Below are positions 41,938 to 45,714 of a stretch of 64,000 bases of DNA, piece by piece (position 1 is the stretch's first letter; the number at the start of each line of letters is the position of its first letter). The stretch is from the NCBI GenBank assembly GCA_013538805.1, contig JABXGR010000003.1, positions 62,001 through 126,000 on the forward strand. Direction: 5' to 3'. Made by a program: the position numbers and the translations under genes. Source of the DNA: Candidatus Nitrosocaldus schleperae (GTDB lineage: Archaea > Thermoproteota > Nitrososphaeria > Nitrososphaerales > Nitrosocaldaceae). A model generated the notes under the pieces. That model was not told the DNA's origin and ran no database searches. It was given only the letters and a program-made list of their open reading frames with translations.

Positions 41938-43656
41938 ATGAGCACTGATATGAGTAGAGACTCAAGCAACAGCAATTATAATGATGATAGTGAATGGGTT
42001 GAGCATGAACTTATAAAGCCAAGGAGCATAGAGAGGAGAGGGTATCAGATAAGTATTGCAAGTACTGCAATGAAGAAGAATACGCTTGTTGTGCTACCTA
42101 CTGGCTTGGGCAAAACAACTATAGCACTACTCCTAATAGCAGATACGCTCAAGCAAGGTAGGAGAGCATTGTTCCTTGCACCAACTAGGGTGCTTGTGCA
42201 TCAGCACTACAACTTCCTTAAGGAGCATCTATTGCATGATGGTATTGCAGTGCTCACTGGCAATACACCAAGGCATGAGAGGATGGATATATGGAGCAAT
42301 GCAAGTGTTGTATGCTCTACTCCTCAAGTTACACTTAACGATATAGAGAGAGGGTTTATAGATGCTGGTGACTTTGCCCTGCTAGTATTTGATGAAGCAC
42401 ACAGGGCAGTTGGAGATTACTCATATAGCAGGATAGCATCACTACTAGCAACAAAGGCAAGCAATACAGCAATAAGGATAATTGGTTTTACAGCTACACT
42501 CCCAGATGATAGGGAGAAGGTGCTAGAGATAGCAAGGAACCTCATGATAGATAGGATAGAGGTTAGGGATGAGAGTAGCCCAGATGTTAGACCATACATA
42601 AAGGATACAAGGATAGAGCTTGTAACTGTTACTCTTACACCAGTTATGATGAAGATAAGGATGCATTTAGAGAGGGCACTCCAGAGTAGGCTTGAGGAGC
42701 TGAAGAGGTTAGGAGTAATAAGTAGTACAAAGGCTAATATGAGCAATCTGATAGAGGCTAGAGAGAGCATATCTGGGGTTAAGGGCTCTGCAGCACAACT
42801 CTACAGTGCTATAAGGCTTAGCCATGCACTCAAGGTACTTGATACCCAAGGAATAACAGCATTCACAAGGTTCTATGAACGCTTGATGGAGAAAGGAGGC
42901 ATAGGTGTAAGAAGTCTATTGGAAGATAGAGAGTTGAGGACTGCATTTGAACTTGCTAGGGGGGCTATGGTATCTGGATTGGAGCACCCAAAGCTCTCAA
43001 GGCTGGTAGAGATACTAAGGAGGGAAGGGTTTGCTCCAGATATGGGCAATTATAGCAGTTATGGCAGTAGTGATAGTAATAGCAAGAGTAACAATAACAA
43101 TAACAGTAGTAGTAGCAGCAGTAGCAGTAATAGCAGTAGAGGCAAAGCACTCATATTCACAAGTTACAGGGACTCTGTTGAGGTCATCACATCAAGGCTA
43201 ATAGATGAAGGGTTCAGGGTTGGCTACCTGATAGGCAAGGCAGGGGAGTATGGACTTAGGCAGGAGGAGCAGGTAGAGGCAGTTAACAGGTTCAGGGCTG
43301 GTGAGTATAACATCCTTGTAGCAACAAGCGTTGGGGAGGAAGGGCTTGATATAGCTGAATGTAACCTAGTCATCTTCTACGATAACGTGCCTAGTGCGAT
43401 AAGGTTTGTGCAGAGGAAGGGTAGAACAGGGAGGAGGATACCTGGCAGGGTGATAGTGCTTGTAACAAAGGATACCATAGATGAGGCATATCACTGGATA
43501 AGCAGGAAGAAGGTTAGACAGGTTAGGGGTATAGTAAACATGGTGAATAGGATTATAGGTGATAAGGCTTGTAGCAATTATAACGATAAAGGTAGTAGCA
43601 GTAATACCTACCATAACAGCACTAATCTAAGCAGGTTGGATGATTTCCTAAGATAG
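41938..43656 (+). CDS. Hef/FANCM-type superfamily 2 helicase without nuclease domain
   Basis: 572 residues. Motif I LPTGLGKTTIAL near residue 55, Ia APTRVLVHQHYNF, II VFDEAHRAVGDYSY, III GFTATLP, and VI QRKGRTGRRIPGR. The Hef insertion between the two RecA domains is present. The C-terminal XPF-type nuclease and HhH of euryarchaeal Hef are absent, as in other helicase-only homologues. A Ser/Asn run of about 25 residues (43060-43138) lies just before motif IV. Expected role: remodelling of stalled forks. Confidence 0.88.
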   Translation: MSTDMSRDSSNSNYNDDSEWVEHELIKPRSIERRGYQISIASTAMKKNTLVVLPTGLGKTTIALLLIADTLKQGRRALFLAPTRVLVHQHYNFLKEHLLHDGIAVLTGNTPRHERMDIWSNASVVCSTPQVTLNDIERGFIDAGDFALLVFDEAHRAVGDYSYSRIASLLATKASNTAIRIIGFTATLPDDREKVLEIARNLMIDRIEVRDESSPDVRPYIKDTRIELVTVTLTPVMMKIRMHLERALQSRLEELKRLGVISSTKANMSNLIEARESISGVKGSAAQLYSAIRLSHALKVLDTQGITAFTRFYERLMEKGGIGVRSLLEDRELRTAFELARGAMVSGLEHPKLSRLVEILRREGFAPDMGNYSSYGSSDSNSKSNNNNNSSSSSSSSNSSRGKALIFTSYRDSVEVITSRLIDEGFRVGYLIGKAGEYGLRQEEQVEAVNRFRAGEYNILVATSVGEEGLDIAECNLVIFYDNVPSAIRFVQRKGRTGRRIPGRVIVLVTKDTIDEAYHWISRKKVRQVRGIVNMVNRIIGDKACSNYNDKGSSSNTYHNSTNLSRLDDFLR

Positions 43657-43696: not shown

Positions 43697-44251
43697 GTGC
43701 TGCCTCCAGTAACACTTGTACTTCTTACACTCAATGTAACTGTATTTATGTTTGTACAGAATATCAACTGGTATAGATTCGGTTCAATCCCATCATACCT
43801 GCTTAATGATCCAGCCATGTTCCTAATAACATCATTCACCTCCATGTTCTTACATGCAAACATAGTGCATATAGCATTCAATATGCTAGCATTGGTAGCC
43901 CTAGGAAGGGTTATAGAAGAGGTCATAGGCTCGATGAGATACGCTATAGTATACATTCTAGCTGGGTTGAGCGGAGTTGCATTGCATACCATCTACTCTC
44001 TTGCTACTAATAATGGCTTCAATACACCCATGGTTGGTGCATCTGGCGCAATATCAGGTATAATAGGATTAGCAGCAGCAATGGGTGATAGGTTCTCCTA
44101 CATCTGGCTTGCTGTTCAGTTTGTATTTGCTATTGTAGGATTATCATCTATAGCATACTTTGCACATATAGGAGGCTTCATCTTTGGCTTCCTCATAGGG
44201 AAGATCTACCATGATAGTATGTATGGAGATAGTACTTATCTTACAAGATGA
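43697..44251 (+). CDS. rhomboid family intramembrane serine protease
   Basis: 184 residues, about six membrane helices. The catalytic Ser is in VGASGAISGIIG near residue 116 and the catalytic His in YFAHIGGFIFGFLIG near residue 156; HANIVHIAFNM carries the conserved L1-side His pair. GTG start at 43697, matching a TATA box (ATTTAAATAT near 43667-43676) about 26 bases upstream, so probably leaderless. Confidence 0.93.
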   Translation: MLPPVTLVLLTLNVTVFMFVQNINWYRFGSIPSYLLNDPAMFLITSFTSMFLHANIVHIAFNMLALVALGRVIEEVIGSMRYAIVYILAGLSGVALHTIYSLATNNGFNTPMVGASGAISGIIGLAAAMGDRFSYIWLAVQFVFAIVGLSSIAYFAHIGGFIFGFLIGKIYHDSMYGDSTYLTR

Positions 44252-44333: not shown

Positions 44334-44553
44334 GGTCATCCACATTCAGGAGTATGTGGCTTTCTACACCCATACTGCTTGGGGGTTCAACCCAATATGG
44401 GTGTAGTTGGCCCTCACCTCTATCCTGCAGGTCTATACGGGTTGCCCCGTTCCCCCTCTGCCTGATAGAGGCGACCACCAGCCATACGGACACCAAGGCT
44501 TCCCTTGATGCCAGGCCTGCTTGGTGGATCGCTCCTTCACCTGGTGGATGACC
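44334..44553 (-). ncRNA. unassigned structured RNA, about 220 nt
   Basis: A GC-rich non-coding block in a 362-bp gap. Its ends pair perfectly (GGTCATCCAC/GTGGATGACC). Inside are an 11-bp hairpin (CTACACCCATA with TATGGGTGTAG), an 8-bp helix (CCTCTATC with GATAGAGG) containing a stem ACGGG-GCAA-CCCGT, and a helix CACCAAG/CTTGGTG. The GCAA tetraloop is GNRA only on the minus strand. A TATA box on that strand (44577-44584) lies 27 bases before the 5' end. Conserved cores of SRP and RNase P RNA are not visible. Transcribed strand and class are inference. Confidence 0.6.
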
Positions 44554-44576: not shown

Positions 44577-44584
44577 GATATAAA
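44577..44584 (-). promoter_or_regulatory. TATA box of the structured RNA
   Basis: Minus strand TTTATATC, centred about 27 bases upstream of the first paired base of the RNA (44553). Confidence 0.5.
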
Positions 44585-44613
44585 CATTACTGATTAAGAT
44601 ATTGATATTACAC

Positions 44614-45276
44614 TCAATATAATTTGATCCCCATGCTATCTATGCTTGATCTGATACTCTCAACATAACTGTCTGGATCGATCTCTATAACTCTTGTATC
44701 ATCAACATTTATTATCATTATTGAGTGTAACCTAGCATTCTTTATCTCCTCCATGCTTATTGGAGGGTTGGAGTAGTATCTATCACACAATGCCTTAACA
44801 CTTGCTATCTCTTCCTTGTTTCTATACCTTGGTGGCTTAAGGAAGAGTCCCTGGACTGGTAGAAGGCTAAGCACAGGGGTTGCAAGTGCAAACTTGCCTG
44901 CAAATGCACTATACCTTGCTATCTTGCTTGCTACCCTTGCTGCACTATATGCTATAGGATCTAGAGCATGATCTGGAGGAACAAACCCAGTCTCTATCTC
45001 AACTATGAACACATTATCCCCCTTGCTTGCATACACATCGCATATGAGCACATCATTCAACTGCCTCTCAACATCAACATCATACCCATACTTTATGAGA
45101 TACTTTGCACATATCAGTTCAAGTACAGAATGGTTTATCTTCACTAGATTACGCTTGTATAGTTCTATGAGTCTATGCTTGACATAGTTGATCTTCTTGA
45201 GTATCAGTTGCTCCTCATTGCTTGACAACCTTGCTGCAACATGCTCTATATCCTCTGCGAACCTCTCTATATCCAC
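44614..45276 (-). CDS. PD-(D/E)XK nuclease-like hypothetical protein
   Basis: 220 residues. HSVLELICAKYLIKYGYDVDVERQL followed by CDVYA and NVFIVEIETGF resembles the restriction-endonuclease fold core (Glu in the first helix, Asp, then E-x-E in place of E-x-K). The Lys of the motif is replaced, so catalysis is uncertain. The remaining C-terminal 100 residues are unassigned. Same strand as the JAMM gene, 48 bases apart. Confidence 0.6.
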   Translation of the reverse strand: MDIERFAEDIEHVAARLSSNEEQLILKKINYVKHRLIELYKRNLVKINHSVLELICAKYLIKYGYDVDVERQLNDVLICDVYASKGDNVFIVEIETGFVPPDHALDPIAYSAARVASKIARYSAFAGKFALATPVLSLLPVQGLFLKPPRYRNKEEIASVKALCDRYYSNPPISMEEIKNARLHSIMIINVDDTRVIEIDPDSYVESIRSSIDSMGIKLY

Positions 45277-45324: not shown

Positions 45325-45714
45325 CTACTCTTCTACACTAAACTCCAACTTCTCCCCTCTTGAGTCATAGATATGGATGTCATCATCCTCATATGGGTAA
45401 CTTACTATCATGCTTATGTAGCCTATAAAGTCAGCATTTAGATCTGTAAGCGATGGCTCGCTAGAGCCATTTGGATGGGAGTGCATTACACCAAGTATAG
45501 AGCGGTCGAATGGGAGCAACATTGTGGGGAAGCCAGAGTAGTATGGACCAAAGTATGAGAATGGAGGTATCATGAGCCTCTCAACAATAGCAGTATCCTT
45601 ACTACTCTTACCACAGAGGAGTAGTATAGCCTCATTTGGATGCCTCATCTTGCAGTAAGATATTATGCTATCAAGGGCGCTCCTCTTTATAATTACCTTC
45701 CTCCTCTTGACCAT
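45325..45714 (-). CDS. JAMM/MPN+ metalloprotease
   Basis: 129 residues. The JAMM motif is complete: Glu in HPNEAILLLCG near residue 28, then HSHPNGSSEPSLTDL (HxHPxGxxxPSxxD) near residue 78. Archaeal members cleave isopeptide bonds of ubiquitin-like SAMP proteins. No SAMP or E1-like gene is visible in the window. Divergent from mpgS. Confidence 0.9.
   Translation of the reverse strand: MVKRRKVIIKRSALDSIISYCKMRHPNEAILLLCGKSSKDTAIVERLMIPPFSYFGPYYSGFPTMLLPFDRSILGVMHSHPNGSSEPSLTDLNADFIGYISMIVSYPYEDDDIHIYDSRGEKLEFSVEE

Follow-up and report, generated by a model that had tools for sequence, protein, structure and literature searches.

An undescribed archaeal RNA family recurrently encoded near a predicted PD-(D/E)XK-fold nuclease-like protein

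Introduction

Large, deeply conserved structured RNAs without a known function are, to our knowledge, rare in archaea. Structured RNAs encoded next to a nuclease gene are found in TnpB systems, with their omegaRNA, and in type III toxin-antitoxin systems, where RNA repeats bind the product of a downstream gene, a ToxN-type endoribonuclease, and inhibit it. The described RNA nearest in character to the one reported here is Tan1 (Thalassoarchaea ncRNA 1), an abundant RNA of 229 nt from marine group II Euryarchaeota, reported solely from Thalassoarchaea (PMC5069720). Both RNAs are archaeal, similar in size, complex in fold and without a known function.

The new RNA was found in a 64-kb stretch of DNA from the thermophilic, ammonia-oxidizing archaeon Candidatus Nitrosocaldus schleperae, the stretch being referred to below in its whole length as the window. 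An initial annotation of its sequence had proposed a minus-strand structured RNA, assigned to no family and served by a promoter of its own. That proposal is supported: Rfam searches were negative, the genome has its SRP and RNase P RNA genes at other loci, the TATA box is conserved and covariation support is overwhelming.

Locus and transcription

The RNA block occupies exactly the position first claimed for it (44334-44553), isolated between a rhomboid gene ending at 44251 and a nuclease-like gene, with empty flanks (Table 1). In the genus it shares the strand of the nuclease-like gene and follows it at a distance of 60 nt. Ahead of the nuclease-like gene, and again with this orientation in the genus, is a Prok-JAB domain gene (45325-45714). 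A helicase gene of the window (DEAD and Helicase_C domains, 41938-43656) encodes a long low-complexity linker of Ser and Asn, which differs among genus members.

The TATA box had been read as favouring the minus strand; it is conserved in the genus. When 57 non-redundant homologs are aligned at the 5' end of P1, exact TATA-like hexamers number 34 at -31 to -28 and ~1 per position elsewhere. This cluster at about -30, seen in several families, suggests that P1 marks the start of an independent primary transcript. T-runs immediately 3' of P1 in many homologs match the expectation for archaeal termination. Judging from these signals, the RNA is probably transcribed independently, from its own promoter.

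The source genome (G000) and each of five other Candidatus Nitrosocaldus genomes carry a single copy (six genomes searched), which led us to reject a MITE or other mobile or repeat element. Some MAGs (G175, G127, G231, G292, G007 and G066) have two to six copies that could be paralogs or mixed strains; the pair in G066 has identical scores.

Table 1 Features of the RNA locus, in window coordinates.
Feature	Coordinates	Strand	Sequence	Description
ncRNA gene, 220 nt	44334..44553	-		P1, P2 (two alternative registers) and hairpins A, B and C
TATA box	44577..44585	-	GTTTATATC	Centre ~27 nt upstream of the RNA 5' end; conserved in the genus, at equivalent position across families
P1 5' arm	44544..44553	-	GGUCAUCCAC	RNA positions 1-10; 10/10 pairs with both-side changes in A4
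P1 3' arm	44334..44343	-	GUGGAUGACC	RNA positions 211-220
Hairpin A	44475..44527	-	GGGAAGCC (conserved loop)	Loop nearly invariant in the genus
Hairpin B	44414..44474	-		GNRA-type apical loop (GCAA here)
Hairpin C	44358..44412	-		3x3 A-rich internal loop (CAA/AAA) over basal pairs
Conserved core, 5' half	44406..44415	-	GAGGGCNAAC	
Conserved core, 3' half	44354..44364	-	GAAAGCCACAU	
Linked gene	44614..45276	-		220-aa nuclease-like protein of predicted PD-(D/E)XK fold; recurrent neighbour of the RNA

Fold and covariation

The structural elements named in the initial annotation are all present: a perfect 10-bp terminal helix (P1) in which GGTCATCCAC (44334-44343) pairs with GTGGATGACC (44544-44553), long hairpins, of which there are three, and a GCAA tetraloop on the minus strand (CGGGGCAACCCG). 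A stalk of P1 and P2 bears hairpins A, B and C, and a core at the junction (GGGCNAAC/GAAAGCCACAU) is conserved in Nitrososphaeria. A close look-alike of the hairpin A loop is retained in part of another class, that of genome G546.

Predicted folding energies are -114.6 kcal/mol for the minus strand (z=-7.35) and -103.2 kcal/mol for the plus strand (z=-5.97), and 0/200 shuffles were as stable in either case. The genus alignment (six sequences) shows that the minus strand was the right call: its consensus comprises 75 pairs, nine with changes on both sides and three with a mismatch, versus ten mismatch pairs on the plus strand, mostly because G-U pairs turn into A-C. A covariation analysis of homologs, which the initial annotation had recommended, gave overwhelming support. 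Both-side changes affect 61/75 pairs in an alignment of 15 homologs (A3; 258 such cells versus 81 shuffled) and 68/75 pairs in one of 84 sequences, 60 of them distinct (A4; covariation score 0.612 observed versus 0.219 shuffled, with slid controls at or below 0.107); both alignments are model-fitted, which favours structure, and the unfitted genus alignment is concordant.

Helix P2 is formed by a 5' stretch at 44528-44543 and a 3' strand at 44344-44357; the 3' strand can pair with either the proximal or the distal of two neighbouring 5' segments. For each register, matched sequence pairs beat shuffled ones (0/1000 shuffles each), and both are supported across families. From this pattern, P2 is possibly a slipping or switching helix, and it may act as a conformational switch.

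Comparison with known RNA classes

A search of Rfam 15, likewise recommended at the outset, matched the RNA to no family. Over the whole 64-kb window nothing rose above threshold except one tRNA, with no match to the RNA region at E<1, and homologs from the order and from other classes gave no credible match over the RNA. The archaeal SRP RNA model (RF01857) had no match in this region at E<5, nor did the archaeal RNase P RNA model (RF00373) match the RNA region. Both genes lie on separate contigs of the source genome (SRP RNA at G000:C15:44499-44811, 149 bits; RNase P RNA at G000:C13:74649-74928, 224 bits), and both are also encoded elsewhere in all close relatives. The initial annotation had noted that the block lacks the visible signatures of these two RNAs, and its suggestion of a highly divergent known RNA finds no support, with no Rfam match and both RNAs found separately.

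Other classes were considered by inspection. An H/ACA guide RNA is marked by a large pseudouridylation pocket, a lower stem of ~9-10 bp ahead of the ACA and a kink-turn; an ACA does follow hairpin C, but the basal stem has 3 bp and the internal loop is 3x3, and this class was rejected. So was a C/D box RNA: the alignment has no conserved pair of box C (RUGAUGA) and box D (CUGA), and homologs are 180-245 nt long versus about 50-70 nt for that class. We also rejected a coding sequence (1-nt indels within the genus disrupt reading frames), a riboswitch or cis-regulatory leader (downstream genes vary between families) and a phage or plasmid origin (blastn gave no matches). A type III toxin-antitoxin system is a poor fit, the RNA having no repeat units and the partner a predicted PD-(D/E)XK-like fold. 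A literature search, with most subscription papers and preprints outside its reach, found no report of this RNA. The RNA family is undescribed and absent from Rfam.

Conservation and distribution

Among six members of Candidatus Nitrosocaldus the RNA is 88-98% identical. Mean identity in the genus is 92.5% for the RNA, 92.2% for RNase P RNA and 86.1% for the DNA of the nuclease gene; over the 120 nt downstream of the RNA it is only 33%.

Three rounds of covariance-model search traced the family outward. The first model, built from the genus, picked up homologs from further genera and families, with E down to 1e-32; the second, from 15 sequences, found them in 57/400 genomes of the order. The third, from 84 matches, reached 51/300 genomes of the class, with a different order (G400) among them, and 12/398 genomes of the phylum, including two outside the class (G453 and G546). 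The family thus extends to many families of the order, to a second order within the class and, within the phylum, to two further classes. It is unassigned, but the further suggestion that it might be lineage-specific was too narrow, since it passes beyond genus, family, order and class. Genome G453 retains the core, as GAGGGC...GGAAAGCCACAU.

The exact core pattern was matched 29 times in 84,980 species genomes, with 28 of these matches in contigs labelled Thaumarchaeota, Nitrosocaldus, 'archaeon' or with names beginning Nitrososphaer. The remaining match, in a contig labelled Amylibacter (L119), had no covariance-model match and was taken as chance; a single pattern match in the viral_contigs set (L144) likewise had no covariance-model match. 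Occurrence across relatives is patchy, and even a sensitive search found no RNA in most Nitrosopumilus-type genomes of family f9 or in genus g8 of family f7. We set aside a core-like 9-mer (AAGCCACAT) found next to the nuclease gene of Nitrosopumilus-type genomes; it had no model match with filters off and apparently lies inside a small CDS. On computational evidence it is close to certain that the RNA is a conserved family.

Association with a nuclease-like protein

The initial annotation had recorded the nuclease-like gene as a flank of the RNA without remarking on a link between the two. The encoded protein matched no family in Pfam or NCBIfam, and no relative with a known structure was found by sequence. 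Its AlphaFold model (pLDDT 92) has weak Foldseek matches, mostly to PD-(D/E)XK proteins (CdiA-CT, XisH, Bax1, Can2 and EndoMS), the CdiA-CT nuclease ranking first. The modelling supports a PD-(D/E)XK fold. Residues E53, D80, E93, E95 and K118 are invariant. Catalysis is not assured, because motif III reads E-x-E where PD-(D/E)XK proteins have E-x-K; K118 may substitute for the missing lysine.

Across 21 neighbourhoods, six families have the nuclease-like gene no more than 2.5 kb from the RNA; every other gene comes this close in two families at most. Relative to the RNA it is placed in four ways: upstream and co-oriented in f1 and f2, downstream and convergent in f6 and f8, downstream and co-oriented in f10, and upstream and divergent in f7. 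The class of G546 has nuclease orthologs in 29/44 genomes, and at 24 of these 29 loci the RNA is directly downstream and convergent, 12 detected by the third model at E<=4e-4 and the rest by P1/P2, hairpin A, fold or eye. These RNAs are GC-rich and share the P1/P2 stalk, hairpin A and architecture; the core GAAAGCCACAU is not conserved in them. In parts of this class the 3' ends of the RNA and the nuclease gene overlap convergently.

The two also occur together. Among 61 genomes of the order, the protein is present in 20/21 RNA-positive and 14/40 RNA-negative genomes (Fisher p=6e-6, kinship ignored), a count in which RNA absence depends on model sensitivity. Scanned genomes of f2, f7, f8 and f10 carry either both or neither, and the pair is unlinked in G006, f13, f9, G022, G400 and several f7 genomes. 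The genomic and phyletic association of RNA and protein is old. Because the protein occurs alone and the RNA almost never without it, the RNA is, on this distribution, more likely than the protein to be the dependent partner; the 14 RNA-negative genomes indicate that the protein can work without detectable RNA.

Families f2, f7 and f8 have further neighbours of the RNA in common, and part of the adjacency may therefore be inherited gene order. Two other arrangements were observed. In f13 (L181, L182, L183 and L192) the RNA is ~310 nt downstream of carB on the same strand, with carA before carB, and in f9 carA/carB are at least 3.5 kb from the RNA; carA and carB, the latter the carbamoyl-phosphate synthase large subunit, were named by sequence reading. 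In f6 (L090 and L067; G011 and G025) the nuclease-like gene stands between the SRP RNA gene and the new RNA.

Proposed function and alternatives

We infer, with the case about evenly poised, that this undescribed RNA family functions together with the PD-(D/E)XK nuclease-like protein, as regards both partnership and function. Joint function is the best-supported hypothesis because adjacency outlasts rearrangement and co-occurrence persists when the genes are unlinked. Since flanking genes vary between families, the RNA would act in trans.

It is conceivable, though we lean well away from the idea, that the RNA is instead a housekeeping, trans-acting structural RNA serving the ribosome, secretion, RNA processing or polymerase regulation, its position by the nuclease gene being old gene order that survived by chance. 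Conservation at the level of RNase P RNA fits such a role, as do a promoter resembling those of the SRP and RNase P genes of the same genomes, the unlinked pairs of several families and the other neighbours shared by f2, f7 and f8. However, the nuclease alone recurs over six families, in four arrangements, and in another class as well, and it tracks the RNA phyletically even when unlinked; a universal role is further opposed by the patchy presence of the RNA.

That the RNA regulates or counteracts the nuclease, in the manner of a type III toxin-antitoxin system, seems unlikely. It would then inhibit the enzyme, or its convergent 3' end would regulate the nuclease mRNA, readings suggested by the tight adjacency of the genes, by the 3'-end overlap in parts of the other class and by the CdiA-CT nuclease as top structural match. 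The protein is nevertheless found in 14 genomes without detected RNA, the RNA has no repeats, and its same-strand or unlinked placement in several lineages excludes a general antisense role.

We regard it as highly improbable that the RNA is an extremely diverged form of an established archaeal class (SRP, RNase P, H/ACA or C/D guide RNA): size and stability are comparable, but the SRP and RNase P RNAs are separate in the same genomes, the window and the homologs from the order and other classes have no Rfam match, and the defining motifs are missing. Least credible is a cis-regulatory element or untranslated region belonging to an adjacent gene. The same-strand position in the genus, 60 nt past the nuclease gene, would suit this reading, but the intervening TATA box kept across families, the inconsistent downstream gene and the convergent orientation in another class would not.

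Returning to joint function, we hypothesize that the RNA would fold into a stable scaffold that binds the PD-(D/E)XK-fold protein, the two forming one ribonucleoprotein. Within this complex the RNA could direct or regulate the nuclease, or the nuclease could mature or protect the RNA. A more specific version, which we offer tentatively and think rather doubtful, is an old archaeal ribonucleoprotein in which the multi-branched RNA directs or switches the PD-(D/E)XK nuclease, possibly by way of the two P2 registers.

Comparison with known systems

Like archaeal SRP RNA (RF01857) and RNase P RNA (RF00373), the new RNA appears to be a stable, trans-acting molecule closed by a terminal helix, with its own TATA-type promoter and similar conservation within the genus. 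It differs from them in that neither model matches it and the genome has separate genes for both. From Tan1 it is set apart by description, its core pattern being almost confined to Thaumarchaeota among the 84,980 genomes.

The RNA resembles omegaRNA and type III antitoxin RNA in adjoining a nuclease gene. Unlike those systems, the new pair shows no sign of a mobile element, guide or repeats and is single-copy in the genus, and the PD-(D/E)XK-like fold of its protein is, we take it, unrelated to RuvC or ToxN. If an RNA does direct or switch a PD-(D/E)XK nuclease here, the pair would make up a kind of RNA-dependent nuclease system distinct from CRISPR, TnpB and toxin-antitoxin pairs. The RNA is present in ammonia-oxidizing lineages, and its recurrent pairing with one uncharacterized nuclease-like protein provides a concrete candidate partner of a kind that most orphan RNAs do not have.
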